Source of the DNA: Curtobacterium sp. UNCCL20
GTDB taxonomy: Bacteria; Actinomycetota; Actinomycetes; Actinomycetales; Microbacteriaceae
Assembly: GCF_900101675.1 (NCBI RefSeq)
Contig: NZ_FNKG01000003.1
Coordinates: 62,001 to 126,000 of the forward strand
Direction: 5' to 3'
DNA: 64,000 nt
Shown here: piece after piece, positions 9,711 through 23,867 of the stretch
Position numbering within the stretch: position 1 is the first letter of the stretch
Layout: each line of letters opens with the position of its first letter
Notes under the pieces: generated by a model
Seen by the model: only the letters and a program-made list of their open reading frames with translations
Database searches by the model: none
What the model was told of the DNA's origin: nothing
Program-made: the position numbers and the translations under genes

Positions 9711-9739
9711 CGCGGGGCTCGTTCGCCGCTCGGTGGTCG

Positions 9740-9811
9740 GCCCGAGTCTCGTGGTGAGCGACCGATCTCGTGCTTCCGGCCCCGAGAACGGTCGCTGTGC
9801 CCGAGTCTCGG
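9740..9811. repeat. 72-bp dispersed hairpin repeat, copy 1
   Basis: The segment is bounded by CGAGTCTCG at both sides and has inner arms GCGACCGATCTCG and CGAGAACGGTCGC that can pair. A close relative lies at 53893-53964. It sits between the convergent trmD and map genes. Confidence 0.6.
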
Positions 9812-9824
9812 CTCCGCCGTGCGG

Positions 9825-9864
9825 GCCTGGAGGCGCGGGGCGGGCTGGTGCCGCGCCTCCAGGC
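9825..9864. terminator. Bidirectional terminator-like palindrome between trmD and map
   Basis: A 14-bp stem (GCCTGGAGGCGCGG and its complement) with a 12-nt loop, ending 3 nt before the map stop codon. Member of the CTGGAGGC palindrome family, well placed to end both convergent transcripts. No T-tract. Confidence 0.6.
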
Positions 9865-9867
9865 TCG

Positions 9868-10650: not shown

Positions 10651-10656
10651 GAGTCC

Positions 10657-10662
10657 ATCCTG
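10657..10662 (-). promoter_or_regulatory. -10 box of map
   Basis: CAGGAT on the minus strand ends 6 nt before the map ATG and fits a leaderless transcript. The same hexamer on the other strand at 10693-10698 may serve rplS. Confidence 0.4.
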
Positions 10663-10692
10663 CCGGTGTTTGGTGTGGGCGTGCTCCTGTGG

Positions 10693-10698
10693 CAGGAT
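10693..10698 (+). promoter_or_regulatory. Candidate -10 box of rplS
   Basis: CAGGAT within GGCAGGATGG would give an rplS leader of about 110 nt, a usual length for ribosomal-protein mRNAs. No clear -35. Confidence 0.3.
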
Positions 10699-10817
10699 GG
10701 GTAGCCGTGCCCTGGCTGGACTCTGCCACGGGGGAGTCGCCGACACCGGGCACACACCTTCACTTACCGAATTCGATCCGCGGCGACCCGTGTGCGTCCG
10801 CAGAGAGTGACCCAACA

Positions 10818-11174
10818 ATGAGCCAGCTCCTCGACCACGTCGACGCAGCGTCGCTGCGCACCGACGTCCCGGACTTCCGTCCGGGCGACACCATCAAGGT
10901 GCACGTCAACATCATCGAAGGCACGCGCTCGCGTGTCCAGGTGTTCCAGGGCGTCGTCATCGGACGCCAGGGTCACGGCCTCGGCGAGACCTTCAAGGTC
11001 CGCAAGGTGAGCTTCCAGGTCGGCGTCGAGCGCTGGTTCCCGGTGCACTCGCCGATCATCGACCACATCGAGATCGTCACCAAGGGTGACGTCCGTCGTG
11101 CGAAGCTCTACTACCTCCGCGAGCTCCGCGGCAAGGCCGCCCGCCGCAAGATCAAGGAGAAGCGCGACTCCTGA
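10818..11174 (+). CDS. rplS: 50S ribosomal protein L19
   Basis: A 118-residue L19 at the 30S-50S interface. Family hallmarks are [21 protein letters not shown] and the C-terminal [22 protein letters not shown] 10818 is chosen because the family starts with a short helix (MSQLLDHVD). Upstream extensions are Pro-rich non-coding sequence. Confidence 0.95.
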
Positions 11175-11222
11175 TCGCCTTCACAGTGAGCGTCCGCGAG
11201 CCCGACGCCGCTGCTCGCCCCT

Positions 11223-11248
11223 CGTCGATGTACGGTTGTGCATCGACG
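11223..11248 (+). terminator. Hairpin downstream of rplS
   Basis: CGTCGATG and CATCGACG flank a 10-nt loop and are followed by a G-run and CTTCCCTTT. A weak terminator-like structure between rplS and lepB. Confidence 0.4.
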
Positions 11249-11363
11249 GGGGGCTTCCCTTTGTGCCGGCTCGGTTCCCGTCGGGCTGGTTCCCGCTGGT
11301 GCTGGGCCGGCTTCTTCCCGGGTTTGTGGCGTGCGAACTCGAGGCGTGTGAACGAGAGTGGAA

Positions 11364-12107
11364 ATGACGGACACGACTGACGAGACCGGGCGCCGACCCC
11401 GCACCGAGAAGAAGCGCAACGGAGTCCTGACATTCCTCCGCGACCTCGTCATCATCTTCATCGCGGCACTGCTCGTCTCGTTCCTCGTCAAGACGTTCCT
11501 GATCCGCTCGTTCTACATCCCGTCGGCGTCGATGGAGAACACGCTGCAGATCAACGACCGCGTGATCGTCAACGAACTCGTGCCGAACGTGGTGTCGCTC
11601 AAGCGCGGCGACGTCGTCGTGTTCAAGGACCCGGGCGGATGGCTCGACGGGTCCGAGGTGCCGAGCGTCACGCCGGACACGCAGCCCGCAAAGGCGATCG
11701 ACTGGCTCCTCACGCAGGTCGGCCTGGGCACCGGGGACAGCGACGACCACCTCATCAAGCGGGTCATCGGCCTGCCCGGTGACAAGGTGTCCTGCTGCAA
11801 CGACCTCGGGCAGATGTCCGTCAACGGCGTGCCGATCAAGGAGCCGTACCTCAAGCTCCCCGCCGGCGCCCCAGCCTCGGCCACCGACTTCTCCGTCACC
11901 GTGCCGAAGGGCAGCATCTGGGTGATGGGCGACAACCGGAACGACTCCAAGGACTCCCGGTACAACGGCGACACCCCGTCGAAGGGCTTCGTCCCGCTGT
12001 CGGACGTCACCGGTCGCGCCTTCGTCATCTCGTGGCCCTCCAGTCGCTGGACCTGGCTCGACGACCACCCCGAGGTCTTCGCCGGCGTGGAGGAGCGGGA
12101 CAAGTGA
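11364..12107 (+). CDS. lepB: Signal peptidase I
   Basis: A 247-residue type I signal peptidase that cuts Sec and Tat signal peptides outside the membrane. One membrane helix (about 23-43) precedes the catalytic Ser in PSASMENT. The general-base Lys is in IKRVIGLPGDK, and box E appears as GDNRNDSKDSR. Start ATG 11364 has GAGAG a few bases upstream; GTG 11358 is an alternative. It overlaps rnhB by 4 nt. Confidence 0.93.
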   Translation: MTDTTDETGRRPRTEKKRNGVLTFLRDLVIIFIAALLVSFLVKTFLIRSFYIPSASMENTLQINDRVIVNELVPNVVSLKRGDVVVFKDPGGWLDGSEVPSVTPDTQPAKAIDWLLTQVGLGTGDSDDHLIKRVIGLPGDKVSCCNDLGQMSVNGVPIKEPYLKLPAGAPASATDFSVTVPKGSIWVMGDNRNDSKDSRYNGDTPSKGFVPLSDVTGRAFVISWPSSRWTWLDDHPEVFAGVEERDK

Positions 12108-12829
12108 CCGCCGTCCGTCCGTCCCTGCGCGTCGAGAAGAAGCTCCTCGGCGAAGGGCGCGTGACGGTCATCGGCATGGACGAGGTCGGTCGCGGCGCGA
12201 TCGCGGGACCCGTCGCGGTCGGCGTGGCCGCGGTCACGATCGACATCGGGCGGGTGCCGCAGGGTCTCGCGGACTCCAAGCTCCTCACCGCCGCCCGACG
12301 CGAGGCGCTCGACCCGGTCGTCCGTCGGTGGACCCGCACGGCGGTCGGCATGGCCTCCGCATCGGTGGTCGACGAGCAGGGCATCGTCCCCGCACTGGGG
12401 CAGGCCGGGGCGTCGGCGCTCGGTGCACTCGTGGCGGACGGGCTGTCGCTCGACGGCGCCGTGGTGGTGCTCGACGGTTCCTTCGACTGGCTCACCCGCG
12501 CCGTCCCGTCGTCCCTCCGGGTTCCCTCCGACCCGCTCGAGGTCGTCGTCCGGGTCAAGGCCGACCGCGACTGCGCCTCGGTCGCTGCGGCATCGGTCGT
12601 CGCCAAGGTCGCGCGTGACGCCCTGATGATCGCGGCGCACGACGATGCGCCGCACTACGCGTGGGCGTCGAACAAGGGGTACGGGTCGACGGCGCACTAC
12701 GACGCGATCCGCTCGGTCGGGGCACACGCGCTGCACCGGAAGAGCTGGCTGCACCAGGCGTCGAGCGTGTCGCTGGACGGGTTCGAGGAACTGGACGGCG
12801 TTCCGGAGTGGAACGCGGTCGCGGGCTGA
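12104..12829 (+). CDS. rnhB: Ribonuclease HII
   Basis: A 241-residue RNase HII that removes ribonucleotides embedded in DNA. Catalytic acids are seen in GMDEVGRGAIAGPV (Asp-Glu), in the LADSK segment and in VKADRDCASVAAAS. GTG 12104 overlaps the lepB stop as GTGA, so translation is coupled. It keeps the conserved actinobacterial order rplS-lepB-rnhB-DUF2469. Confidence 0.95.
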   Translation: MTAVRPSLRVEKKLLGEGRVTVIGMDEVGRGAIAGPVAVGVAAVTIDIGRVPQGLADSKLLTAARREALDPVVRRWTRTAVGMASASVVDEQGIVPALGQAGASALGALVADGLSLDGAVVVLDGSFDWLTRAVPSSLRVPSDPLEVVVRVKADRDCASVAAASVVAKVARDALMIAAHDDAPHYAWASNKGYGSTAHYDAIRSVGAHALHRKSWLHQASSVSLDGFEELDGVPEWNAVAG

Positions 12830-12856
12830 GCCGCAGTGTCGGCGTCACCGCTGGCC

Positions 12857-12919
12857 GTGTGTGTCGTGTGTGCCTGCGTGTGTGTCGTGTGCGCCTCCGT
12901 GTGTGTCGTGTGCGGCTCC
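12857..12919. repeat. Three tandem 21-bp GT-rich repeats
   Basis: Three units close to GTGTGTGTCGTGTGCGCCTCC fill the gap between rnhB and the DUF2469 gene and end 7 nt before its -10 box. Confidence 0.8.
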
Positions 12920-12926
12920 GCCGCCG

Positions 12927-12932
12927 TAGACT
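12927..12932 (+). promoter_or_regulatory. -10 box of the DUF2469 gene
   Basis: TAGACT ends 9 nt before the ATG at 12942, leaving almost no leader. The same hexamer occurs before frr and ssrA. Confidence 0.5.
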
Positions 12933-12941
12933 GTGGGCGCG

Positions 12942-13265
12942 ATGGATGACGACGAATTCGACGACTACGACCGCGAGGTCGAACTTGCCCTGTACCGCGA
13001 GTACCGCGACGTCGTGTCGCAGTTCCGGTACGTGGTCGAGACCGAGCGGCGTTTCTACCTGGCCAACGAGGTGGAACTCGCCCGCCGGGACACCGAGCAC
13101 GATTTCTACTTCGAATTGACGATGAACGACGTCTGGGTCTGGGACGTCTACCGTTCCGATCGGTTCGTGAAGTCCGTGCGGGTGCTGACGTTCAAGGACG
13201 TCAACGTCGAGGAACTCACATCGCGTGAACTCGAGTTGCCGAAGGAACTCGCACTCGACGAGTGA
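12942..13265 (+). CDS. DUF2469 family protein
   Basis: A 107-residue acidic and aromatic protein (MDDDEFDDYDREVELALYRE...DVWVWDVYR) of the DUF2469 family, which is nearly restricted to Actinobacteria and is found beside rnhB and yraN. No function is established. It has no membrane segment or catalytic motif that can be recognised. ATG 12942 is favoured over an in-frame GTG 9 nt upstream because of the -10 box. Confidence 0.85.
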   Translation: MDDDEFDDYDREVELALYREYRDVVSQFRYVVETERRFYLANEVELARRDTEHDFYFELTMNDVWVWDVYRSDRFVKSVRVLTFKDVNVEELTSRELELPKELALDE

Positions 13266-13376
13266 TCTTCAGTTCCATTGCGGCGGACTGAGAAACGCCC
13301 CGGCAATGACACTCCGGCGGTATTCCCGCGCTAATGTGGTGTGGATTTCCGTCCCCCGAAAACACAGGAGAACGTC

Positions 13377-13730
13377 ATGGCACAGAAGGTCACTGTTCAA
13401 CTCGTCGACGACCTCGACGATTCGCCCATCGCGCCGGGTGAAGGCCGCACCCTCGAATTCGCGTTCGACGGGTCGTCCTACGAGATCGACCTGACGGACG
13501 ACAACGTCGACAAGTTCCGTGAAGCGATCTCCGACTACGTCGCCGCTGCACGCAAGGTGTCCGGACGTCGTTCGAGTGGCGGCAGCGGTGCTCCGAAGTC
13601 CGCCCCGAAGCGCGGCAACTCCGAAGAGCTCGGGAAGATCCGCGAATGGGCGAAGGAGAACGGCTACGAGGTGTCGACCCGGGGGCGCATCTCGACCCAG
13701 GTGCAGGAAGCGTACGCGGCCGCACACTGA
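13377..13730 (+). CDS. lsr2: Lsr2 nucleoid-associated protein
   Basis: A 117-residue Lsr2. The N-terminal oligomerisation domain (MAQKVTVQLVDDLD...LEFAFDGSSYEIDL) is followed by a basic Ser/Gly/Lys linker and a C-terminal DNA-binding domain with the AT-hook-like RGR in STRGRIS. Lsr2 bridges AT-rich, often foreign, DNA and silences it, much as H-NS does. It could act on the element inserted 1.5 kb away, but that is speculation. ATG 13377 follows CAGGAG. Confidence 0.93.
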   Translation: MAQKVTVQLVDDLDDSPIAPGEGRTLEFAFDGSSYEIDLTDDNVDKFREAISDYVAAARKVSGRRSSGGSGAPKSAPKRGNSEELGKIREWAKENGYEVSTRGRISTQVQEAYAAAH

Positions 13731-13742
13731 CATCGGCTCACG

Positions 13743-13806
13743 AGAACCCGGACGACCTCGGTGGTCCGAGAACCCGGTCGACCTCGGTCGTCCGGGTTCT
13801 TTGCTT
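13743..13806 (+). terminator. Lsr2 terminator
   Basis: A perfect 15-bp stem (AGAACCCGGACGACC, 13743-13757, with its complement at 13786-13800) followed by TTGCTTTG. It lies 12 nt after the lsr2 stop and is a convincing rho-independent terminator. Confidence 0.8.
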
Positions 13807-13907
13807 TGTCCTCCACAGAAACCGATATCGCTCCGTCTCTCCACAATTCGTCGCGCGGCACGCTTCCGGTGCGGTGAGTCCGCGAACCTTGCGGCGGAGG
13901 CAACGAC

Positions 13908-14276
13908 ATGGAGCGAACACCGCTGCGGAACAGCAGTCTCGGACGATTCGGTGAAGACCGGGCCGTGGAATGGCTGGAGGACCACGGATTCCGCGTGGTC
14001 GAACGGAATTGGCGATGTCCCCGCGGCGAGGTGGACATCATCGCGTGGCAGTCGTGCACGCTGGTCTTCATCGAGGTGAAGACCCGGTCGGGCATCTCGA
14101 CGGGCCATCCGTTCGAGGCGATCACCGCCTCCAAGGTGGCCCGGATGCGGCGACTCGTCCCCGCGTCGTTCGACGAGCACCCCGAAGTGTCGGCGCGCGC
14201 GATCCGGATCGACGCGGTCGCGGTGCACGTCGACGCGGACCGGGTCGGGGTCGACCACATCGCGGGTGTGCTGTGA
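13908..14276 (+). CDS. YraN / UPF0102 endonuclease-like protein
   Basis: A 122-residue UPF0102 protein with the nuclease-like core: GRFGEDRAVEWLEDHG, RGEVDIIA and FIEVKTRSG, where Glu, Asp and Glu-x-Lys form the Holliday-junction-resolvase-like site. Its role is not proven; the usual genomic link to comM-dprA suggests DNA processing. Its stop overlaps the comM GTG start by 4 nt, so yraN-comM-dprA is one operon. Confidence 0.9.
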   Translation: MERTPLRNSSLGRFGEDRAVEWLEDHGFRVVERNWRCPRGEVDIIAWQSCTLVFIEVKTRSGISTGHPFEAITASKVARMRRLVPASFDEHPEVSARAIRIDAVAVHVDADRVGVDHIAGVL

Positions 14277-15193
14277 CGGGGATCGGACGTGCCGCCGCCA
14301 TCGCCCTGGTGGGCGTCGCCGGCCGACGGATCGAGGTCGAGGCGCACCTCACGAGTCAGCTGCCCGCGTTCAGCATCATCGGGTTGCCCGACACCTCCCT
14401 CGGTGAGGCACGCGAGCGTGTCCGAGCGGCGGCGGCGAACGCCGGATGTCCTCTGCCGGCACGACGGATCACCGTCAACCTCACGCCGGCTGCGATCCCC
14501 AAGCGTGGATCCGGCTTCGACCTGGCGATCGCGATGGCGGTGCTCGCCGCTGCCGAGGTCGCGCCTCGGGTCTCCGAGCGGGTCGTGTACATCGGCGAAC
14601 TCGGGCTGGACGGACGGCTGCGGCCGGTCGCAGGGGTGATCCCGATGCTGCTCGCCGCGCGCGACTCCGGTGCTGAACGGGTCGTGCTGCCGATCGGGAA
14701 CCTCGACGAGGCCCGGGTGGTCGGTGGCGTATCGGTGCACGGCACCGATTCCCTCCGGGCGGCGGCGATCGACGCCGGGGCCCTGCTGCCCGACGTCGAG
14801 GTCCGCGCGGTGCTGCCGACCGCCGCTCCGCCGGACGACCGGCCCGTCGCCGAGCTGTCGGACGTGATCGGCAACCCCATCGGCGTCCGTGCCGTCATCG
14901 CCGCCGCGGCGGGTGGGCACCACGCGCTGCTCCTCGGGCCGCCCGGTGCCGGGAAGACGATGCTCGCCGAACGACTGCCCGGGCTCCTCCCCGACCTCGA
15001 CGACGAGGCTGCGCTCGAGGTCGCGGCCGTGCGGTCGGTCGCCGGGCACGGTTCCGCGTCGTGGACCACCCGTCCGCCGTGGGAAGCGCCGCACCACTCG
15101 GCGTCCGCGATCGCGCTCATCGGAGGAGGGTCCGGTGTGATCCGACCCGGAGCGGTCTCGCGGGCCACCCGCGGGGTGCTCTTCCTCGACGAG
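14273..15193 (+). pseudogene. comM: comM, 5' part (interrupted by element)
   Basis: The first 307 codons of a YifB/ComM AAA+ ATPase: the N-terminal LonC/ribosomal-S5-like domain (SIIGLPDTSLGEARERV), Walker A GPPGAGKTML and the start of Walker B GVLFLDE. ComM is a hexameric helicase that drives branch migration of incoming DNA in natural transformation. The gene is cut exactly at the Asp-Glu codons. As it stands, the frame runs on to a stop at 15379, giving a chimeric 368-residue product with no Walker B function. GTG 14273 overlaps yraN. Joining 15193 to 23868 restores a 506-residue ComM of normal length. Confidence 0.92.
15185..15193. other. attL core
   Basis: CTCGACGAG encodes Leu-Asp-Glu of the comM Walker B. 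Inside the element the sequence continues with an ACCAAAAGG arm (15203-15211), which mirrors CCTTTTGGT beside attR and gives the reconstructed attP a partial dyad. Confidence 0.85.
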
Positions 15194-15236
15194 TCGGGAA
15201 GTACCAAAAGGGGACATCGGAAGCTAAGCTCCAGCC

Positions 15237-16769
15237 ATGGCCACCCCTCTGCGAGCAGTGCTCTACTGCCGAGTGTCTCGCACCACGGAAGAGTCCGTCT
15301 CTATCGACCGGCAAGAGCGCGAGCTACGGCAGGTCGCGGAAGCCGCGGGCTGGCCGGTCGTGCAGGTGTTCACCGATGACGGCCTGTCCGGACGCAAGGA
15401 GCGCGAGAGGGCGGACGCCGCCCTGGCCATGCTCGCCCAGGGCGGCGCAGACGTGCTGCTGGTCTGGGAGCTGAGCCGATGGAGTCGCATGGGTCTCTCC
15501 GCGGTCGCCAAGCTGGTCGGCGTGCTCCGAGAGCGCCCGGGGGCGCTCTTCATCGCTCACAAGGAGGGGCTGCGGTCCGATCAGCCCGCATTCGGGATCA
15601 TGGCCGCCGTCATCGCGGAGGTAGCGGCGATGGAGGCGGAAGGCACCCGCGACCGCATCCGGTCCATGCGCGCTCACGTGCTGAGTCAGACCGACCCCGA
15701 CGAGATGCGGTGGCTGGGAGGGTCTTCGCCGTTCGGCTACCGCGCTGTCGCTCGGCCGAGCGGCGGCAAGATGCTCGTGGTCGACGACTACGAAGCCGAA
15801 GCAGCCCGGACGGTCGCCGAGAAGTTCGCCTCGGGGGTCAGCCTCACCGACGGCACCCGCTGGCTGCAAGAGCACGGGGTGCCCACGCCCCAGTCTCCGG
15901 CGCGGCGTGCCCGGCAAGCGGGGGAGACGGTCGACGGCCTCGACGCCGGGCAATGGCGAATCACCACCGTCCGGAAGCTCTTCCTGTCCCCAACGCTGCT
16001 CGGCCGCACAACCAAGAAGGTGCAAGTGGGGGCCCGGGCAGATGGGTCCGCCGTCGAGGAATACCGGGTCGTGACGGACTCGCAGGGCCTGCCGATTCAG
16101 CGGTGGGAACCGGTGCTCGACCCCGGCACCTGGTCAGCCATCCAGTCGACGCTTACCAAGCGCGGACCGAACGCTCCTAAGAAGGCCGCCAGCTGGCTCA
16201 GTGGGTTCCTCGAATGCGGCCTGTGCGGAAGCGTCATGTACGCCAACAGCCGGAAGGACCGTGCGAACGGGTCTTTCCGGTGCGCCAACAAGGCAGTGCC
16301 CGGACTGGCCTGCCCCGGCGTCTCCATCGCTCGCGTCCCCGTCGAGCACCACGTAGAGGCTCTTGTCCTCGATGCCATCGGCAAGCTGCATGAGTACCGG
16401 ATCACGGAGCGCATCGAGGGTGCCGCCGACCCTGGAGCACTCGAAGCAGTCGCGCAGGAGATCAGCGACCTCCAAGCAGCGCTCGCCGACGACGGTGCCG
16501 ACTACTCCGTCCTCATCCCGCGGCTGGAGGCGCTCAAGGAGCGCAGACGTGCCCTGCTGGAAGCTCCCGGAAAGGTCGTGCGGACGCGCATCCCCACCGG
16601 TCGCACCCTCGCGGAAGCCTGGGCAGAGGGCGGGGTGCGCGAGCGGCAGCACTTCATTAGTGACATGCTCGTTGCGGTCGAGGTAGAGCCGGCAGCACGT
16701 CCCCGGCAGCCAATCGCTGAGCGGCTGCTCGTGGTCTGGAATGACCCAGTAGCGGAAGAGGACGACTGA
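15237..16769 (+). CDS. int: Large serine recombinase (integrase)
   Basis: A 510-residue large serine integrase. The resolvase-like catalytic domain has nucleophile S14 in YCRVSR, then SIDRQE, DDGLSG and WELSRWSRMG. A recombinase domain (about 160-290) follows, then a zinc ribbon with C327, C330, C349 and C359 and a coiled-coil segment (about 395-440) of the kind that governs attP/attB versus attL/attR choice. Such enzymes integrate unidirectionally and excise only with a directionality factor. ATG 15237 lies 44 nt inside attL, the usual position. Which of the small element genes might be the directionality factor is unknown. Confidence 0.93.
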   Translation: MATPLRAVLYCRVSRTTEESVSIDRQERELRQVAEAAGWPVVQVFTDDGLSGRKERERADAALAMLAQGGADVLLVWELSRWSRMGLSAVAKLVGVLRERPGALFIAHKEGLRSDQPAFGIMAAVIAEVAAMEAEGTRDRIRSMRAHVLSQTDPDEMRWLGGSSPFGYRAVARPSGGKMLVVDDYEAEAARTVAEKFASGVSLTDGTRWLQEHGVPTPQSPARRARQAGETVDGLDAGQWRITTVRKLFLSPTLLGRTTKKVQVGARADGSAVEEYRVVTDSQGLPIQRWEPVLDPGTWSAIQSTLTKRGPNAPKKAASWLSGFLECGLCGSVMYANSRKDRANGSFRCANKAVPGLACPGVSIARVPVEHHVEALVLDAIGKLHEYRITERIEGAADPGALEAVAQEISDLQAALADDGADYSVLIPRLEALKERRRALLEAPGKVVRTRIPTGRTLAEAWAEGGVRERQHFISDMLVAVEVEPAARPRQPIAERLLVVWNDPVAEEDD

Positions 16770-16829
16770 GGCAGGAGACCCCCTGCGCGGCGGGCAGCTG
16801 CCCTGGTTCCTCATCGCCAGCTGAGCGCT

Positions 16830-16875
16830 GCTCGGGCGACACGCCCGAGCGGAAGTCAAACTTTGATGCGATTTT
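16830..16875 (+). terminator. Integrase terminator
   Basis: A 9-bp stem (GCTCGGGCG, 3-nt loop, CGCCCGAGC) 60 nt after the integrase stop, with a TTTTT run about 20 nt further on. Confidence 0.5.
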
Positions 16876-17016
16876 TCGACATCTCTGTGGCATGGGCGTG
16901 GGATACACCGACTTCCATCTGTGCACACCGGGCACCACCTGTGACCATGAACCCACTGATTCTGGAAAGGGCGTGTGGGAGCCAGTCCCAACAACTTTGA
17001 CCTGCCCATGTCAAAC
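16855..17016. promoter_or_regulatory. Non-coding gap with two GTCAAA/TTTGAC dyads
   Basis: No gene is supported between 16770 and 17143. Two related inverted repeats stand out: GTCAAA-C-TTTGAT at 16855-16867 and TTTGAC-N8-GTCAAA at 16997-17016. They could be operator sites for an element regulator controlling int or the small downstream gene. This rests on symmetry alone. Confidence 0.3.
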
Positions 17017-17143
17017 GCGCCCAAGGACGTGGGTGGTCGCGGTTACCGTCATAGGTAAGGGCCACACCAACCGGTGCGGCCCGAACCTAGGACTGGCTGA
17101 TCTGTAGGAGGACGAGCCTGTCCGCAAGCGCCCTGGAGGCCAC

Positions 17144-17260
17144 TTGACACAGCACGTTACCCCAACCCTGCCCCGCTGGCCGGTCATCGTCGGCGCGATC
17201 ACTGCGGTGTTGCACCTCGGGGCCGCGACCGTCGAACTCCTGACGGCCCTGCTGCACTGA
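17144..17260 (+). CDS. 38-residue membrane peptide
   Basis: A short open frame starting at TTG 17144, with a strong GGAGG ribosome site at 17134-17138 and a terminator 7 nt after its stop. The product has a polar start (TQHVTPTLPR) and then one hydrophobic helix (WPVIVGAITAVLHLGAATV), so it should sit in the membrane. There is an in-frame stop at 17105 and no other start between. Function unknown; small membrane peptides are common in phages and satellites. Confidence 0.55.
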   Translation: MTQHVTPTLPRWPVIVGAITAVLHLGAATVELLTALLH

Positions 17261-17267
17261 CAGCAGG

Positions 17268-17294
17268 ACGCCCCCGCTTTAACGGCGGGGGCGT
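17268..17294. terminator. Bidirectional terminator
   Basis: A perfect 10-bp stem ACGCCCCCGC/GCGGGGGCGT with a TTTAACG loop. It separates the rightward micro-gene from the end of the leftward operon. Confidence 0.7.
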
Positions 17295-17352
17295 TCGCCC
17301 GTCAAGCGGGCACTTCAGGCCGCTGCTCCGAGATCGAGGATGGTGGCTGCGC

Positions 17353-17508
17353 TCATCGCCATGCATCCTCAGAGTTGCCCCAGCCCGCTTCGAGCGCAAG
17401 CCGCGCTTTGAACTCCGCCAAGGTCATCGCCTCAGGGCTACGTCTCCAGGCCGCCTCGACGGGGTCAAGGGGCTTGTAGAGGTTTGAGCTGTCGGTGTTG
17501 TCGGTCAT
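17353..17508 (-). CDS. 51-residue hypothetical protein
   Basis: A small acidic protein (MTDNTDSSNLYKPLD...MTLAEFKARLALEAGWG) that is not recognised. ATG 17508 overlaps the HNH stop as ATGA and has AAGGAAG upstream, so it is probably translated. It is the last gene of the leftward operon. Confidence 0.5.
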   Translation of the reverse strand: MTDNTDSSNLYKPLDPVEAAWRRSPEAMTLAEFKARLALEAGWGNSEDAWR

Positions 17509-18266
17509 GAGTGGCTTCCTTCGAGTTGTTGAGCTGCGTAGCGGGCACGGCGGCGAGCGTTCCGGGCCACGCGGCGCACGGGGTCGGCGTAGCGCGCTCG
17601 ATCCGCGGCCCGGATCGCCGCCCGGCGCTCCGGGTCGGCTCGGAAGTTGCGACTGCGCTGTGTGTTCGCCGCTGTGCAGTCCGCACACCGGCAGCCCGCC
17701 TGGTACCGCGTGTAGGAACCGTGCTGCGCCGTTGGGATCGTCCCGTGACGCTGGGCATCAGCGGTGTTCATGGCATGGGTGCCCCAAGCCAAGTTGCTCG
17801 CGCGGTTGTTCCGCTGGTCGCCGTCGAGATGTCGCACCAGCGGGTGATGGTCGGGATTGTCGTGGAATGCCTCGGCAACCAGCCGATGAACCTTCCGCTG
17901 CCGATTGTGAATGGAGGCGTGGAGGTACCCGTCCGGGTACGGGGTCAGCTTGACGTGCCGCGGCGACTCGTATCGCGGAAGGACGGAGCCTGTGAACCGG
18001 ACGCGGCCTTCCGAGGACACCTGATAGTGCCCACGAGCACCCGCAATGTCCCGCCACTCTTCGCCGGGCAGGTCGGTGGAGAGCGCGGGACGCGGGCTAG
18101 CTGCCTCCGCGCGGAGCCGAAGCACGAGGCGGGCGGCCCAAGCTGCATTCGAGCACGGGACGCACGGTGCTTCACCGCGGCGATAGTGGGCCTCAGCGCC
18201 GGCCTTGCCGGGCAAACCACACAGCGCCGTGATCGTCGGCTCCAGCCGCCCTGAGGCGGCGGTCAT
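17505..18266 (-). CDS. NUMOD4/HNH endonuclease with extra Cys modules
   Basis: A 253-residue protein. A NUMOD4 motif (EEWRDIAGARGHYQVSSEG, about 69-87) precedes an HNH core (HRLVAEAFH ... VRHLDGDQRNNRASNL, about 127-159), the layout of phage homing-type endonucleases that nick or cut double-stranded DNA. Flanking both sides are short Cys clusters: C16, C35, C38 at the N-terminus and GCRCADC (about 181-187) at the C-terminus, similar to small actinophage zinc modules. Start and stop both overlap neighbours as ATGA. It could be a packaging-associated nuclease, as HNH proteins are in many cos phages, or a homing enzyme. Confidence 0.8.
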   Translation of the reverse strand: MTAASGRLEPTITALCGLPGKAGAEAHYRRGEAPCVPCSNAAWAARLVLRLRAEAASPRPALSTDLPGEEWRDIAGARGHYQVSSEGRVRFTGSVLPRYESPRHVKLTPYPDGYLHASIHNRQRKVHRLVAEAFHDNPDHHPLVRHLDGDQRNNRASNLAWGTHAMNTADAQRHGTIPTAQHGSYTRYQAGCRCADCTAANTQRSRNFRADPERRAAIRAADRARYADPVRRVARNARRRARYAAQQLEGSHS

Positions 18267-18616
18267 GATTCGGCCCGCTCTGCTTCGGCGCGCTCAGTGC
18301 AGGGCGTGCAGCTGTTCCACAGGCCGTCGGTAGCGGTAGGGCAGTCGCCGAATGCTGTGAACGGGAGGACTTCACCGCACCTGGAGCACGTCTTCGAGCC
18401 GGTGGGGTGCTTCGCCGTGCGAGCGGCGGAAACCTGCTCCGGCGTCCGTGCCAGGAGCGCTTCCCGGCGGCGGTTGGTTCGGCTGGCGTTGTGGCGGCGG
18501 CGTTCGGCGATGCGGGTTTCGATGCGGGCGCGGGAGCCGGGCCGGGTCGCGGTCTCCAGAAGCGCTTCGAGGGCGCTGAGGGTGCTGGGGTAGATCCGGC
18601 GGCGTTGTTCAGACAT
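18263..18616 (-). CDS. 117-residue zinc-finger protein
   Basis: A basic N-terminal half (RIETRIAERRRHNASRTNRRRE) is followed by two CxxC pairs: CSRCGEVLPFTAFGDC and later CTPC. Proteins with this pattern are frequent in actinophages and are probably nucleic-acid binding or HNH-like. ATG 18616 has GGAG upstream; the frame overlaps the preceding micro-gene by 8 nt and the HNH gene by 4 nt. Function unknown. Confidence 0.55.
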   Translation of the reverse strand: MSEQRRRIYPSTLSALEALLETATRPGSRARIETRIAERRRHNASRTNRRREALLARTPEQVSAARTAKHPTGSKTCSRCGEVLPFTAFGDCPTATDGLWNSCTPCTERAEAERAES

Positions 18617-18713
18617 TGCAGACTCCGATGATGAGAAGGCCGGCGCTGAGCGTGGCGGCCAGGACGTGGGTGGTGGTGATGGCGGCGCGGAGTTCACGCA
18701 GGTGGTGCTTCAT
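18609..18713 (-). CDS. 34-residue membrane peptide
   Basis: MKHHLRELRAAITTTH, then a hydrophobic helix ALLAATLSAG-like to the C-terminus (VLAATLSAGLLIIGV). A GGAG ribosome site lies upstream of ATG 18713, and the end overlaps the next gene by 8 nt. A terminator just upstream makes it the first gene of a sub-operon. Function unknown. Confidence 0.45.
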   Translation of the reverse strand: MKHHLRELRAAITTTHVLAATLSAGLLIIGVCNV

Positions 18714-18731
18714 GGGGCAGGCTCCAATGAG

Positions 18732-18786
18732 AAAAGGCCCCTCCAGAGCACCCCCGCCTGCCCGGAAGGGGTGCCCTGAAGGGGCC
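18732..18786 (-). terminator. Leftward terminator between zinc-finger genes
   Basis: On the minus strand a long imperfect stem (GGCCCCTTCAGGGCACCCC paired with GGGGTGCTCTGGAGGGGCC) is followed by TTTTCTC. It would end, or attenuate, transcription coming from the capsid side. Confidence 0.65.
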
Positions 18787-18862
18787 GGTCTTGTGTGGCG
18801 TCGATTCGAGCGGGCAGGGCTTCGACGCGGTCGGGTGCTAGGCACCCGAAGATGGGGAGGGC

Positions 18863-19126
18863 CTACGCGGCCGTGGTGGGCTGTGCGGCCTCGGCCGCGC
18901 GGAGAGCGAGGTTGCGCTCGCGGTTCCGGGCACGGTAGCGGGCCATGGCGAGCCGGTGGGCCTCACGCCCGCGGTCCGTGTGCCGGTAGGCGCGGACCCG
19001 CGCGGCCCGGCACGGCCGGCACTGGTTCCGGCGGCCAGAGGGGGCGGAGACGTCGAGCGGGAAGTCCCCGATGGGCTTGGTCTCGTCGCAGATGCCGCAG
19101 CGCTTGGTGTCAGTCGGTTCAGTCAC
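18863..19126 (-). CDS. 87-residue zinc-finger protein
   Basis: CGICDETKPIGDFPLD and CRPCRAARVRAYR supply two CxxC pairs, followed by an Arg-rich helix (RARNRERNLALRAAE). It is the compact actinophage zinc-finger type, related in pattern to the 117-residue neighbour, and probably binds nucleic acid. GTG 19126 overlaps the previous stop (GTGA). Confidence 0.55.
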   Translation of the reverse strand: MTEPTDTKRCGICDETKPIGDFPLDVSAPSGRRNQCRPCRAARVRAYRHTDRGREAHRLAMARYRARNRERNLALRAAEAAQPTTAA

Positions 19127-19416
19127 TTGGTGGCTCCCTTCGCGGGTGTCGATTCCTGCTTCAGCTTCGCCAGGCGGCTGGCCGTGCGGGTCGGTGCCGG
19201 TCCGTCGTCCCTCGCCTCGCGGACGATCCGGCGAACGGCCGTCAGCAGGCTCACGTACGCGGCGAGCGTTCGGGTCTGGAGGCTGCCCGCCTTGGTCTGG
19301 CGGTCGAGGGTGGCGGCGAGCGTGCGGGCGAGCTGCACGGTGCTGGCGTGCTCAGGGTTCGCCAGCACGGGGTCCGCGGCGAGCGTCACCTCGAGGGCTT
19401 CTGCGTGGCTGGTCAT
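19123..19416 (-). CDS. Possible small-terminase-like protein
   Basis: A 97-residue helical protein: STVQLARTLAATLDRQTKAG and RTLAAYVSLLTAVRRIVREA. The pattern (a Leu-rich helix with a LARxLA core, then a Tyr-x-x-Leu helix) resembles the small terminase subunits annotated in many actinophages, and it lies two genes from the capsid gene. Satellites often carry their own small terminase to redirect packaging. The match is by eye and weak, so the function is a hypothesis. ATG 19416 overlaps the preceding stop. Confidence 0.35.
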   Translation of the reverse strand: MTSHAEALEVTLAADPVLANPEHASTVQLARTLAATLDRQTKAGSLQTRTLAAYVSLLTAVRRIVREARDDGPAPTRTASRLAKLKQESTPAKGATK

Positions 19417-19763
19417 CGCGCCTCCTTGGCGGCTTCGAGATGGGCGGCGGTAGCGCCTTCGCGCTGGCCGATGGAGTGCGCCTGGAGCAGCGCGAGGTGG
19501 AGTCCCTGGGCGAACTCGTCCGCGGTCTTCGCGGAGCTGAGCACGGCCCAGTTGGGCATGAGGGGGAGCGACGGCACCCGGCGCTTCAGCGCGGCGACGG
19601 CTTCGGACACATCGAGTGGGGTGGCCAGCCCGGCGGAGACCGCCTCCTGCTCAGCATTGAAGAGCTGAGCAGCGAGGGCGTCTCGCTGGGCGGTGACTTC
19701 CCGCAGCTCCCGCTGGAGGCGGGCGGCGCGCATGGTGTGGGCGTTGCTTCCAAACAGGGCCAC
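19413..19763 (-). CDS. 116-residue coiled-coil protein
   Basis: GTG 19763 has GGGAG 5 nt upstream, so it is preferred to upstream TTG starts. The N-terminal half is a coiled coil (MRAARLQRELREVTAQRDALAAQ...EQEA) and the rest is mixed helical with no known motif. First gene of the leftward coupled operon and directly downstream of the capsid gene. It could be a scaffold or capsid-size factor given its place and coiled coil, but nothing proves this. Confidence 0.5.
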   Translation of the reverse strand: MALFGSNAHTMRAARLQRELREVTAQRDALAAQLFNAEQEAVSAGLATPLDVSEAVAALKRRVPSLPLMPNWAVLSSAKTADEFAQGLHLALLQAHSIGQREGATAAHLEAAKEAR

Positions 19764-20107
19764 AGGGTCTCCCAAGGTCAAGGTCAAACGAGGGGGGGTG
19801 GGCAAAAACGGCCGGGGAGGGATTGAGGGTTACCCGGAGAGTGTCCGTGGCTTCGGCAGCCGTGAGAACTGACCCCCCTACCCCCTCAGGGCCTCGGAAC
19901 AGGGGCGGACCGCCCGTCTCGTGCGCTTGTCCCGGCGACCGGCTTACCCAGCAGCGCTCGCATTTGACAGGCGGTCCGCGAACACGGAAGTCGCGGGAGG
20001 AAGCGCGACCGTCGTGTCTGCGGTCGGTCCGCGGAGCTGTCAGAGGACTCCGAGACCGGCCAGCTCACTCGACCCACCGAGGAAGGGCGGCGGGGAGTGG
20101 AGCAGTG
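19764..20107. other. Non-coding gap downstream of the capsid gene
   Basis: About 340 nt with no supported gene. It holds GGTCAAGGTCAAA (19776 region), a GGGCGGACCGCCC palindrome near 19906, and further GGTCCGC motifs at about 19970-20035. It probably contains the promoter of the leftward small-gene operon. Confidence 0.4.
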
Positions 20108-20160
20108 CCCGGCCGGGCGGTGAGACCCGGCCGGGCTGGCAGCTGAAAGGCTCAGCTGCC
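20108..20160 (-). terminator. Capsid-gene terminators
   Basis: Two hairpins follow the capsid stop: GGCAGCTGA-AAGGC-TCAGCTGCC (20138-20160) and a pair of CCCGGCCGGGC blocks (20108-20118, 20126-20136). They isolate capsid transcription from the small-gene operon. Confidence 0.55.
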
Positions 20161-20177
20161 GAAGCCATGAGGTGGAG

Positions 20178-21308
20178 CTACGCCGCCTTGGTCGTGACCA
20201 GGGCGATGGCCTCCGGACGGAACACGTCGAAGCCGAAGCGGCCCTCCGTACGCGCCACCACCTGGTTGGTGGTGAAGTACGTGTAGGGGTTCCACTCCGT
20301 CTCGACTCCGACCTTGTCGGTGCTGAGGCCGACCGAGTCCTGGCCGAGGACCAGGGCCTTGCCCGAGGGCAGGTCCGGGGAGGCCACGGTGGGCATGCCC
20401 CAGAGACCCGGGCGGTCGCCGCCCTCGAACGGGTTGCCGCCGAGGTACTGGCCGTTGCCGTCCTTGCTCAGGCGGATGGCGTCGTAGTCCTCGACCGGGA
20501 GGACGAGGACCGAGACGTTGTGCCCGAGCGAGGTGATCTTCGACGCTCCCGCGTAGATCGAGTCAGCGGCCGTGCCGGCGAAGGCCTGCGACTGGATGCC
20601 CGAGGCCGTGGAGAACGCGGAGACCGCATCGGCCGTGAGCTTGCGGATGATGCCGTTGCGCAGTTCGGCGTCCAGGAAGTCGGCGAGGTCGCCGTTGTCC
20701 CGGAGCAGCATCTTGTCGATGGGTTCCGACAGGTGCGCGTACACCTTGAGCGCGCCGTCGACCGCCTTGACCGTGTAGACCGAGGTCGGCTTCTGGGCAC
20801 CCGGCGCGACCACGGCCGCGTTGTTGGTGCGGACCGTCTGGGCGACGTAGCTGTACTTCTCGCTGTCGCGCTGGCGGACCGGGATGAGGCCCAGCAGACC
20901 CAGCCCCGCCTGCCCGAGCGGCACCGGCTTGGTGTCGAGAGCCACCGGAGTGACCGTCGAGCCGCCAGCCACAACCGCCTTGACGCCGTTCAGGGCCGCG
21001 CGGTCCGCGGTTGCCTTCAGGCTCGCCGGAGTGATGAAGCCGCGGGGCGCGGACTTCACCTGGGTGTGCTCCGAGCCGCCGACGCCGTCCGGGAAGACGA
21101 GGTCGGTACCGGTCGTGCCGGCCGTGTGTTCGGCGGCCTTCAGACCGCGGATCTCAGCCTGGAGCTGGAACGCGCGGTCGGAGTCCGACTCGACGGACTT
21201 GACCTCGGCGTCGGTCAGGTCCCGGCCGCTGGCCTTGACCTCGGCGACGAGGGTGCCCATGCGAGCCTGGATGGTGGCCAGTTCGGCCTGTGCGGACTTG
21301 ATGTCCAT
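20178..21308 (-). CDS. HK97-fold major capsid protein
   Basis: A 376-residue phage major capsid protein. Residues 1-70 form a charged helical N-arm (MDIKSAQAELATIQARM... AFQLQAEIRGLK) like the HK97 delta/scaffold region. The rest matches the HK97 shell fold: RGFITPASLKA, TPVALDTKPVPL, SEKYSYVAQTVRTNNAA, the HLSEPIDKMLL helix, ELRNGIIRKL and a C-terminal RFGFDVFRPEAIALV. ATG 21308 has AAGGAAG. In complete phages this gene sits beside portal and protease genes; neither is present here. The frame is intact and separately promoted and terminated, as expected of a functional gene rather than a relic. Confidence 0.85.
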   Translation of the reverse strand: MDIKSAQAELATIQARMGTLVAEVKASGRDLTDAEVKSVESDSDRAFQLQAEIRGLKAAEHTAGTTGTDLVFPDGVGGSEHTQVKSAPRGFITPASLKATADRAALNGVKAVVAGGSTVTPVALDTKPVPLGQAGLGLLGLIPVRQRDSEKYSYVAQTVRTNNAAVVAPGAQKPTSVYTVKAVDGALKVYAHLSEPIDKMLLRDNGDLADFLDAELRNGIIRKLTADAVSAFSTASGIQSQAFAGTAADSIYAGASKITSLGHNVSVLVLPVEDYDAIRLSKDGNGQYLGGNPFEGGDRPGLWGMPTVASPDLPSGKALVLGQDSVGLSTDKVGVETEWNPYTYFTTNQVVARTEGRFGFDVFRPEAIALVTTKAA

Positions 21309-21550
21309 GGTGATACTTCCTTGCAGTAGAACACTGATGCGGCCTGCTGGCCGCGGAGAGTGCCTACGGAGGTCGGAGACGGACCCGTGGTGCATGTCCC
21401 TCCTGGGACTTGGGCTGGCCTCTGACTGGACCGGTGTCCGTACTCGACCTCTGCCCTCCTGGGCCTCGGGTCGCGGACGCGGCGATGCACCGCTACCAGG
21501 CCGGGGATCGGCCGGCCGCTGAGCGGTGCAAGATCTGGGGAGGGCGGGAT

Positions 21551-21840
21551 GCCCTCATGTGAGTAGACCCTCTGCTGGTAACAAGCCGAGACGGTCGTGG
21601 GTGCCCCTCATATGACTAGACGGCATTGGTGTAACAAGCCGAGACGGTCGTGGGTGCCCTCGTATGAGTAGTACGCCACGTGGGGACAAGCCGAGGCGGG
21701 CGTGGGTGTCCCTCAGTTGATAAGTCCCTCTGCTTGATTCACTCCGGGCGGCAGTGCCGGCCTCGTGGGGTGCCCTCGGATGAGACGAGGGTGTTTGGGT
21801 AACAAGCCGAGGCGGTCGTGGGTGCCCATGTGAGTAGACG
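21551..21840. repeat. Tandem ~53-bp repeats upstream of the capsid gene
   Basis: Four copies of ACAAGCCGAG followed by (A/G)CGG(T/G)CGTGGGTGCCC occur at 21581, 21634, 21686 and 21802, spaced 53, 52 and 116 bp. Each is followed by a variant of CTCATATGAGTAG. A degenerate fifth unit fills the 116-bp space. The block lies in the 568-nt gap between the capsid start and the 187-residue gene; nothing else is seen there except sequence likely to hold the capsid promoter. Candidates are an origin, a packaging site or regulator-binding sites. Confidence 0.8.
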
Positions 21841-21876
21841 GCATTGTGACTTCACCCCGGCGGCGGGGCCGTCCCG

Positions 21877-22440
21877 TCAGCCGAAGAGCTTCTGAAGGAC
21901 GTAGGTGACAGCGGAGCCGAGGGCAGCGGCGACGACGCCCACGATCACGGGGCTGTTCCACCACGCGCGCGAGGCGGTGTCCGGCGAATCGAGCTGGAGC
22001 GGTTCGTACGGCTCGGCGCGGCCGTGATGACTGAGGCTCCGCCGGATTGCGGCTCCGAACGCCTGAACGTCTTCGGGGAGCACTCCCTCGTAGTCGACCT
22101 CTAGCCGGAAGCCTTCCAGCCCCTGCCAGTCCGCGAAGACCGAGAACATCGCTTCTCGGTCGATTCGCCCGGTCCCGGCCGCGGGCCACCTCTCCAACGT
22201 CGAGAAGACCGACTTGGGCGCGGCACCCGTCTCATCGAGCCGGGCGAGCGCCTCGTGGAGGTCCATCCCGTTCTCGCGCAGCTCCCAGCGGACGGCGTTG
22301 TCCACAGCCGAGTAGCTGAGCGCGCCGGTCTCCCTCACGAACTCCAACCGCAGCTCGTCGTAGACCTGGACGAGAGCTTCCCGGAGCTTCTCGCCGCTGC
22401 GGAAGTAGCGCTCTTCCCTCTCGCGGTGTTGTCCCGGCAC
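21877..22440 (-). CDS. 187-residue tail-anchored protein
   Basis: A soluble acidic/charged region (EREERYFRSGEKLREALVQVYDEL ... shortened here; then FEGVLP-like and ALERW segments) ends in one membrane helix at the extreme C-terminus (about 163-183, SPVIVGVVAAALGSAVTYV). No known domain is recognised. Such C-terminal anchors occur in some phage-defence and signalling effectors and in accessory genes of satellites, which is only suggestive. GTG 22440 start. It is an element accessory gene, divergent from the 59-residue gene. Confidence 0.55.
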   Translation of the reverse strand: MPGQHREREERYFRSGEKLREALVQVYDELRLEFVRETGALSYSAVDNAVRWELRENGMDLHEALARLDETGAAPKSVFSTLERWPAAGTGRIDREAMFSVFADWQGLEGFRLEVDYEGVLPEDVQAFGAAIRRSLSHHGRAEPYEPLQLDSPDTASRAWWNSPVIVGVVAAALGSAVTYVLQKLFG

Positions 22441-22599
22441 TCGTCCAACCTATGGCAGGCCAGCGACACAGGCTGAGGCCGGCGCGCTCGCCGAAGCTGG
22501 AAGCATCCTGGAGATTCTCCCGGGGCCGGGAGGTCGCTTGCGGTGTCGGAGGCCATGTGTACTCTCCGAGCACCCTTCACCTATCGAGAGGACGAAACC

Positions 22600-22779
22600 A
22601 TGGCCACCGCACACGAGGTCAACGAAGCAAACGCAGAAGCGCAGCTGGCGCTGCTCAAGAAGATCCAGGAGAGCGTCACCAGCGAGCGGGTGGCCCCCAG
22701 TGCCATCAGCGAGTGGGCGCTCGCCTACCGTTACCTCCGAGGCGGCGCGCAGCCCGGCAGCGCGACCGTCGAGAAGTAG
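22600..22779 (+). CDS. 59-residue hypothetical protein
   Basis: MATAHEVNEANAEAQLALLKK... then SEWALAYRYLRGG: a short helical protein with no recognised family. ATG 22600 has GAGAGGA upstream and a good terminator follows, so it is likely expressed. One of the few rightward element genes, which makes it a candidate regulator or recombination directionality factor on size alone. Confidence 0.5.
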   Translation: MATAHEVNEANAEAQLALLKKIQESVTSERVAPSAISEWALAYRYLRGGAQPGSATVEK

Positions 22780-22790
22780 CGCGCGCCGAG

Positions 22791-22818
22791 GCCCGGACGT
22801 TCACAGCGGCGTCCGGGC
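22791..22818. terminator. Bidirectional terminator between convergent element genes
   Basis: GCCCGGACG (22791-22799) and CGTCCGGGC (22810-22818) with AAG/CTT-like flanks form a hairpin between the 59-residue gene and the stop of the 205-residue gene. Confidence 0.6.
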
Positions 22819-22822
22819 TTCG

Positions 22823-23440
22823 TCATGCCCGGCGCATCTCGGCGTACAGCTCGCTGATGCGGTCGCGGAGCCTCCGCAGCTTCCGAGCGTCAGGGTGCTG
22901 CTCGGGGATCTCGGGGCCATAGACCCGGTCGATCATCTGCTCCAGCTCGCGGGCCTCCCGGCGGAGCGGGGCGAGCACAGCTGCGAGGCTTTCGCGCTCC
23001 AGCTCGGCTGCCCGGTCATCGGGCGAGCTGAAGCGGTCCCGGATCGTCCGGGGCAGCGACGGGTCCTGCCGGCGGGCGTGCTGGAGCTGGCCGGCGACGG
23101 TCTCTAGGTGGCGTGCCTTCCGAGCCTCGGGGGAGCGGTCGCCTCGGCGGTAGGAGCTGGCGGAGTGCTCCAGGATGAGGGCTGGCAGCTCGGCCAGGGC
23201 CTCCGGCACTCGGATGCCGTGGAAGCCGTAGATGCCTTGGCGCTTCGACTCTCTGAAGCCACGCGCCCGGAGGATGCGGAACAGCTCCCGAGACGTCAGC
23301 GGTCGGGTGCCCGGCGGCATGGCGTCCAGGGCCGCTCGGAAGACGGCCGTGCGGGGCGACCAAGCGGCGGGGTCGAGATCGAAGATGCGCTCCAGGCCGT
23401 TGAGGGCGGGCGCTGCGGGCGCTGCGGTTGGTGAGGTCAT
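22823..23440 (-). CDS. 205-residue winged-helix-like DNA-binding protein
   Basis: The middle (about 62-92, PLTSRELFRILRARGFRESK, then GIYGFHGIRV) resembles the winged-helix tail of phage primase/helicase proteins, where an eL..aL..rGf helix is followed by a GxRGxxGIRL wing. The C-terminal half is a long charged helix with coiled-coil character. ATG 23440 reads away from three 16-bp direct repeats at 23529-23663. A protein beside iterons could be a replication initiator or an autoregulating repressor. No primase or helicase catalytic motif is present. Confidence 0.5.
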   Translation of the reverse strand: MTSPTAAPAAPALNGLERIFDLDPAAWSPRTAVFRAALDAMPPGTRPLTSRELFRILRARGFRESKRQGIYGFHGIRVPEALAELPALILEHSASSYRRGDRSPEARKARHLETVAGQLQHARRQDPSLPRTIRDRFSSPDDRAAELERESLAAVLAPLRREARELEQMIDRVYGPEIPEQHPDARKLRRLRDRISELYAEMRRA

Positions 23441-23528
23441 GGGCCTTCCAGGGGCGATCGAGGGACCGGCGAAGCGGTCGAGGGTGGCGCACAGGCAACA
23501 CCCAGGTGTATGTCCTGTCCAAGTGCCT

Positions 23529-23663
23529 AGGGGCAGTTTGGACAGATGGCACTTCCGCGCAGATGCAGGGCAGTGGATGCCAAGGGGCAGTTTGGACAAC
23601 TGGTCACCCGGCGCTACTTCCCAGGTGGCAGTAGGGGCGCACGGCGAAGGGGCAGTTTGGCCA
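23529..23663. repeat. Three iterons upstream of the winged-helix gene
   Basis: AGGGGCAGTTTGGACA occurs at 23529-23544 and 23583-23598, and AGGGGCAGTTTGGCCA at 23648-23663; spacings are 54 and 65 bp. An inverted CCAGTTGCCCC lies at about 23706-23716. The 418-nt gap from 23441 to the right end has no gene; it holds these repeats and the attP right arm. Confidence 0.8.
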
Positions 23664-23858
23664 TCGGTTCTAACAACTAAAGGAGAACAGCCCCTTGAAC
23701 CTGCCCCAGTTGCCCCAGGAACCTTCCCATCGGCTTGCTGGTGCGGATCGGGGCGGTGCAGGAACATGCCCCGTTCCTGCCCCAAGTGCCGCAGAACTAC
23801 CCGGAAACTGTCCCATTGGTTCTGGAGCGGTAGTACCTCACGTCACCTTTTGGTGTTG

Positions 23859-23867
23859 CTCGACGAG
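23859..23867. other. attR core
   Basis: Second copy of CTCGACGAG. CCTTTTGGT (23846-23854) lies just inside the element and mirrors ACCAAAAGG at the left end. Confidence 0.85.

Follow-up and report, generated by a model that had tools for sequence, protein, structure and literature searches.

The comM gene of Curtobacterium sp. UNCCL20 is interrupted, in the 64,000-nucleotide stretch of DNA analyzed here (the window), by an element of about 8.7 kb (15185-23867) that carries an integrase gene and a phage-type major capsid protein (MCP) gene. The question raised by this locus is whether the element is a phage satellite or the remains of a prophage. The first-pass annotation had proposed a minimal satellite, bringing only its shell protein and borrowing everything else from a helper. 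Our analysis makes it probable that the element is a phage satellite which provides its own shell, likely provides its own small terminase, and would borrow the rest from a helper phage of the Dismasvirus type.

The borders of the element were placed at the same 9 bp found at both ends:

15185-15193, plus strand: left attachment (att) core, CTCGACGAG, within the part of comM that encodes Walker B (LFLDE)

23859-23867, plus strand: right att core, CTCGACGAG, after which comM resumes (LLDEAPEF...) and runs to 24467

An element had been annotated at 15237-23440; it is there, but the att cores make its borders wider. In all five relatives inspected, comM is uninterrupted across the insertion point. 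A search with the 3' part of comM found that part in all 66 genomes of the genus. The open frame has at least 517 codons in 58 of the 66, and comM is interrupted or short in seven (G000, G006, G031, G060, G039, G024, and G013). In the first four of these, comM is interrupted by elements of the same family as the window element; the interrupted gene of G060 retains a frame of 497 codons, which shows that frame length does not reliably indicate interruption. The comM of G039 has 244 codons, and that of G025 carries stops. In G024 and G013, comM lies in two pieces about 35 kb and about 44 kb apart, split at a different point of the gene; comM seems to be a repeated target for larger elements too.

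Three genes of the element are central to its interpretation:

15237-16769, plus strand: large serine integrase, 510 aa, with Resolvase, Recombinase, and Zn-ribbon domains (PF00239, PF07508, PF13408; phrog_95, E = 4.7e-74)

20178-21308, minus strand: HK97-type MCP with an N-terminal delta (scaffold) domain, 376 aa (PF05065, TIGR01554, structure-profile match)

19123-19416, minus strand: probable small terminase subunit, 97 aa, Terminase_6-like by profile comparison

The domains of the integrase, which is 69–76% identical to the integrases of three sister elements in the same genus, and the matches of the MCP to PF05065 (E = 6.5e-21) and TIGR01554 (above its cut-off, E = 5.7e-22) bear out the annotated integrase and intact HK97-type capsid gene. 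In a search of solved structures with the MCP family profile, 12 sequences were matched, all named capsid or head proteins (best E = 1.3e-28); the match to 3qpr, a major capsid protein with scaffolding domain delta, covered residues 20-375 (E = 2.2e-24). In an AlphaFold2 model of the MCP (mean pLDDT 71, pTM 0.54), a pair of long N-terminal helices is followed by a region of poor model quality (61-135) and then by a better core. As the scans found no packaging motor, the HK97-type shell gene might instead make an encapsulin-like protein compartment of the cell. We rejected this reading, which seems to us hardly credible, because the profile matched phage head proteins with their delta domain included, none of the 12 PDB sequences is named as an encapsulin, and an integrase and a small-terminase candidate accompany the capsid gene.

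The annotation had reported that genes for portal, large terminase, protease, tail, and lysis were not visible. We scanned the 10 element proteins against Pfam and PHROGs (E up to 1) and NCBIfam (E up to 0.1), and no match above noise was to a family of portal, terminase, protease, tail, or lysis proteins; the frame at 22823-23785 matched one lysis PHROG at noise level (E = 0.096). Connectors, looked for by family scans only, were not found. Because the MCP has a delta domain while the element lacks a protease gene, we suggest that the protease of the helper is used. In the genome of the strain itself, neither the portal family PF04860 nor PF03354, the one large-terminase family searched, is present; judged by these two families alone, there is no resident helper, and a helper would therefore come from outside.

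The same gene set had been proposed for a search in other actinobacterial genomes, and it recurs there. Nine elements of one MCP clade, spread over several genera, were compared: the window element and those at loci L017, L018, L019, L025, L027, L056, L057, and L058. All nine have a serine integrase, an MCP, and a zinc-finger gene; a protein of the type of the 205-aa protein listed below is present in eight (not L056). Eight are inserted in comM, and the stretch of L057 shows no comM. Gene counts were made with profiles grown from prophage seeds (L022, L023, and L024), and these matched no large terminase, portal, or protease in any of the nine. The same profiles find all three genes around the capsid gene in the seeds, and find them also in L030, L062, L068, L069, L070, L071, L073, and L074, so their absence from the nine elements is not due to blindness of the profiles. 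A Pfam scan of 103 open reading frames (ORFs) from the eight sisters returned 15 families: HNH types, Phage_capsid (8 members), recombinase domains, DUF7169, a C5 methylase, a small terminase (1 member), and minor ones. Portal, large terminase, and protease were not among them. With PHROGs, the three functions were absent among 25 of the 46 sister families, the other 21 having few members and not being covered.

Random deletion in a prophage could by chance have left an integrase and a capsid gene, and a single capsid gene among scattered small genes is indeed what remains here. Such decay, which the annotation had argued against, is nevertheless hard to reconcile with an integrase and an open MCP frame in all nine elements. 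Premature stops in sister capsid genes, named in the annotation as a sign of a remnant, were not found: the TAG at the G006 capsid locus lies 5' of the true MCP start, and the 382-codon ORF from L017:9421 is open. The capsid gene is under purifying selection. For the closest pair, L018 and L019, dN was 0.079 and dS 0.441 (dN/dS = 0.18), and the integrase dN/dS of the same pair was 0.136. The leader 5' of the capsid gene is more conserved than coding DNA; between the window and L017 it is 81.5% identical over 211 nt, compared with 65% for the alignment that extends across the capsid gene.

The relationships of the MCP also argue against decay. In an IQ-TREE tree of 36 MCPs the nine elements formed one clade (support 100/100), and the sisters of this clade were L059 and three other capsid-only elements (96/95), that is, loci with an integrase and a capsid gene and no match to large terminase, portal, or protease in the stretch examined. 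The nearest MCPs are thus from elements without these genes, not from full phages. The split between the capsid-only rows plus L059 and the 19 full-phage rows was weakly supported (63/37). L061, L064, and L030 are long in this tree, and the sampling is biased, since the rows were collected by searching with this capsid family; L063, L066, L072, and L075, which had contig edges or partial matches, were left out. No close full-length or larger phage relative was found of which the element would be a deletion. With no broken MCP frame either, random prophage decay is largely refuted, and we regard it as very unlikely. A conserved family of reduced satellites is well supported by these comparisons.

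The claim that the shell protein is the only head gene did not hold. The 97-aa protein itself has no direct family match in Pfam, PHROGs, or NCBIfam (best PHROG E = 0.35); its family comprises 45 proteins, unnamed or called "hypothetical," of which 21 were aligned. PF23931 (Terminase_6) matches 10 of the 21 (E up to 0.1, best 8.4e-4), not including the window protein, and also matches all of a comparison set of eight phage small terminases. These eight come from Microbacterium, Curtobacterium, and Arthrobacter phages and either lie just before the large terminase gene or are annotated as small terminases; the two from Arthrobacter are annotated as transposase and hypothetical. In hhalign, the 97-aa family aligned with this set over its full length (98 columns; probability 96.2, P = 2.1e-9), a score reached by none of 100 column-shuffled profiles. 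The comparison with eight small-terminase candidates of actinobacterial prophages gave a probability of 82.6 over 48 columns. A tblastn search of phages with one relative (P0033) gave no match, and the phage link therefore comes from profile comparison. We conclude that 19123-19416 likely encodes a small terminase, for which there is a candidate in six of the nine elements, that of the window included. Of the borrowing that had been proposed, most virion parts would still come from the helper, but not everything except the shell.

The window capsid matches 725 phage records. The best 25 of these by coverage times identity, at 28–30% identity, were 24 Microbacterium phages of the Armstrong/Dismas type and the Curtobacterium phage CliffHanger. 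Dismas-type phages have a matching small terminase near the genes for large terminase, portal, protease, and capsid. The top-listed capsid matches and the small-terminase family lead to the same phage group, and the best helper candidates would be Dismasvirus-type phages of Curtobacterium and Microbacterium, about 40 kb in size. Phages of the Dismasvirus/Edenvirus/Armstrongvirus type share with the element the top-listed MCP matches, the small-terminase family, and a hairpin upstream of the MCP gene; they differ from it in being complete phages of about 39–42 kb.

The hairpin lies in the capsid leader, followed by another:

21436-21478, minus strand: leader hairpin with an outer helix, a CGAG/AGA internal loop, a 4-bp inner helix, and an AGGA loop

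21396-21409, minus strand: further hairpin with an AGGA loop, following the leader hairpin by about 56 nt

The leader hairpin combines its AGGA loop with stems that change between elements. A strict descriptor, written from the satellite sequences, matched eight of the nine satellites (not L057), against a mean of 0.17 for shuffled sequences, none of which reached 8 in 200 trials. In a first look it also matched CliffHanger and BAjuniper about 110 nt upstream of the MCP gene and none of nine other loci. A looser descriptor matched six of the nine satellites (not L018, L019, or L057) and nine of ten Dismas-type phages; it matched none of 12 other phages and prophages and none of eight other elements (seven capsid-only loci and L059). 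Three further Dismasviruses all matched it, with a hairpin identical to that of Burritobowl. AGGA two-helix hairpins occur by chance, with nine on both strands of the 64-kb window, the leader hairpin included. The folding energies of the nine leaders (z-scores of −2.49 to +1.13) were not convincing alone, and an Rfam search gave a noise match only (E = 0.45); the case for a conserved hairpin is made by the descriptor counts and the changing stems. In the tree, the MCPs of Dismas-type phages do not group as sisters to those of the satellites, so the common hairpin is not easily explained by shared descent alone. Possibly the satellites copied from the helper a signal that controls capsid expression.

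Several observations weigh against the interpretation given so far. The small-terminase candidate of the window lacks a direct Pfam match, and three of the nine elements (L018, L019, and L058) have no small-terminase match. Other pairs gave higher MCP dN/dS values than L018/L019, all below 1 (0.40 for L025/L027, 0.48 for the window and L017, and 0.64 for the window and L056); dS is probably underestimated in such GC-rich genes. The strict hairpin descriptor found only 5 of 11 phages, missing Burritobowl, Lahqtemish, AvGardian, Dismas, Teagster, and Maja, and the count of nine in ten was obtained only after the descriptor had been loosened with the phage sequences in view. The loop of the CliffHanger hairpin is ATGG, and the looser AGGA descriptor matches five other places on the minus strand of that phage. 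In the phages the final part of the protease gene contains the hairpin, and coding constraint there may contribute to the conservation of the hairpin. The MCP of the element is only 28–30% identical to those of the candidate helpers among the matches listed.

Some of these points would suit a satellite whose helper is of another type, the common capsid, small-terminase, and hairpin features then being old homology: MCP identity is low, the satellite MCPs form a lineage of their own, and the hairpin descriptor was relaxed for the phages post hoc. We consider such a helper decidedly unlikely, because the hairpin is common to the satellites and the Dismas-type phages against the MCP tree, and was not found in the 12 other phages and prophages or the eight other elements. 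A satellite of Dismasvirus-type phages remains our preferred reading. Its fullest form, in which a family of such satellites carries just the two head specificity parts (shell protein and small terminase) and an RNA hairpin shared with the capsid leader of the helper, and uses the protease, portal, large terminase, and tail of that helper, we put forward tentatively, as possible rather than probable.

Under this reading, entry of a helper siphophage would lead the serine integrase to excise the element, which would then replicate, perhaps from the repeats beside the gene for the 205-aa protein. The capsid protein of the element would assemble a shell, perhaps one too small for helper DNA, and its small terminase would direct the large terminase of the helper to element DNA; protease, portal, connectors, and tail would be provided by the helper. 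The same proteins could also act in another way. An MCP and a small terminase homologous to phage parts could be dominant-negative subunits that poison head assembly or packaging of the phage, in an island that is seldom or never packaged and spreads mainly by other routes; that family scans found no portal or tail would fit this. A site-specific integrase in all nine elements and their scatter over genera argue for regular mobility, and interference and packaging are compatible with each other, so we think an island for interference unlikely.

The remaining genes and repeats of the element are as follows:

17505-18266, minus strand: HNH endonuclease with a NUMOD4 motif, homing-type (Pfam, PHROGs, PADLOC)

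18263-18697, minus strand: small protein similar to a portion of endonuclease VII-like proteins (phrog_1035, E = 6.7e-9)

18863-19126, minus strand: endonuclease VII-like zinc-finger protein, 87 aa (phrog_1035, E = 1.4e-11)

19413-19805, minus strand: 130-aa protein between capsid and small terminase, with a relative in L027

21547-21836: 69-nt direct repeat present four times, separating the capsid leader from the next gene; might serve as a packaging site

21877-22440, minus strand: 187-aa protein with a hydrophobic C-terminal tail

22600-22779, plus strand: 59-aa protein, with a longer start possible at 22543

22823-23440, minus strand: 205-aa protein kept in the elements, with profile matches in eight of nine

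23524-23668: three 26-nt direct repeats, iteron-like, upstream of the gene for the 205-aa protein

Neighboring frames overlap by four bases at 18263-18266, 19123-19126, and 19413-19416, as the annotation had noted for the small genes. No convincing family was found in Pfam, PHROGs, or NCBIfam for the 130-aa protein, none in Pfam or PHROGs at E up to 1 for the 187-aa protein, and none in the databases for the 205-aa protein, which is probably DNA-binding. Read from an alignment, relatives of the latter at L019:8083-8841 and L025:8665-9444 have an HNH-like domain fused at the N terminus. PADLOC reported only the homing-endonuclease match for the window element. Classical islands of the type found in Staphylococcus aureus (SaPIs) have AlpA/Stl-type regulators and a primase-replication gene at conserved places; scans of Pfam, PHROGs, and NCBIfam found neither family among the window element proteins.

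Other features were seen in the sister elements. The L025 element (Microbacterium azadirachtae, 8455-17880) lies inverted with respect to comM, an arrangement consistent with an integrase whose crossover dinucleotide is symmetric. Among the strains that carry such elements are M. azadirachtae ARN176 and M. arabinogalactanolyticum JCM9171. At L057:5353-6766 and L058:5624-6890 a C5 cytosine methylase is followed by an HNH-type protein, possibly as restriction-modification cargo. By eye, a similar membrane-anchored cargo protein is present in two elements of different genera (L018:13941-14537 and L025:14258-14833).

Capsid searches gave matches in at least 14 of 198 relatives and at least 19 of 398 family members, the strain's own genome included in each; these tallies are lower bounds, as in many genomes only part of the first-look candidates was scored. 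Loci were examined at up to 20 kb, and G255, G017, G018, and G197 were left out. With the single window capsid sequence, neither genome contigs nor viral contigs gave a match. The alignment-based search found five loci in genome contigs, two of them on the same contigs as L018 and L019, and one locus in viral contigs, L030, which has large terminase, portal, and protease. L029, from an Anaerolineae metagenome-assembled genome, was dropped as a capsid relative because its match was short and weak (59 residues). Seven further loci (L060, L061, L064, L065, L067, L020, and L021) have an integrase and a capsid gene and no large terminase or portal match in the stretch examined; the integrase is of the tyrosine or serine type, some have a helicase or primase, and L064 is cut by the contig end soon after the capsid gene. 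L065 and L067 have a small-terminase-like gene, and L065 also has, by eye, an AlpA-like gene. In L059 (9078-13241) a small-terminase-like gene and a short ORF resembling a tape measure come after the capsid gene, and neither large terminase nor portal was matched; the locus is a remnant or an odd layout and belongs to no group.

Satellites with their own capsid gene are already known. Capsid-forming phage-inducible chromosomal islands (cf-PICIs) carry MCP, protease, portal, connectors, and both terminase subunits (PMC10690885). Like them, the window element is an integrated satellite with its own capsid and HNH genes and no tail genes; unlike them, it shows of the head genes only the MCP and, by profile comparison only, a likely small terminase, and no portal, head protease, connectors, or large terminase of its own. 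Mycobacterium candidate PICIs, which are said to correspond to phiRv1/phiRv2 in slow growers, are defined by integration machinery and a major capsid gene (PMC10654092), both of which the window element has in one region. Some of them also have serine integrases; they differ in their hosts, some are reported to have helicase, terminase, or scaffold genes, and the available text describes no pairing with a small terminase, no comM site, and no hairpin (PMC10654092). The Streptomyces satellites Mulch and Flayer are likewise actinobacterial, have their own capsid genes, and have virulent helpers and reportedly small heads, but their genes include those for portal, scaffold, adapter, and the two terminase subunits, a set that elements of the window type do not encode (PMC10690885). 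Some SaPI-type PICIs redirect packaging with their own small terminase; SaPI scaffolding proteins remodel the helper capsid, whereas the window element brings its own capsid protein (PMC10690885).

The annotated design was therefore rightly called reduced, but "unusually" has to be tempered, as integrase-plus-capsid loci without other head genes were met repeatedly here and have been published for Mycobacterium (PMC10654092). What appears new, relative to the available text of these sources, is a satellite with a shell and likely a small terminase only. Among titles and the beginnings of abstracts, in a search whose coverage excluded most subscription papers, no description of such a satellite was found; within the same coverage there was no paper on a hairpin upstream of the capsid gene in Microbacterium phages. 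The element of PMC12324425 is, from its available text, a different one.

A survey of actinobacterial prophages supposes that many elements below 15 kb could be satellites (PMC10023795, available text). In the available text of a Curtobacterium prophage survey, 64 of 70 regions were analyzed, those with a capsid and a large terminase gene, and the word "satellite" does not occur in the main text (PMC9862828). Elements of the present type fail that criterion and may be undercounted elsewhere too. If our interpretation is correct, they would separate the head parts that a satellite must own, the shell and the choice of DNA, from those that it can borrow, the motor, portal, protease, and tail. 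It would then have to be asked how a capsid protein about 30% identical to that of the helper can accept the portal and protease of the helper. The candidate helper phages named here have cultured laboratory hosts (M. foliorum NRRL B-24224 for Dismas, Eden, and Armstrong), and the question is therefore directly testable.

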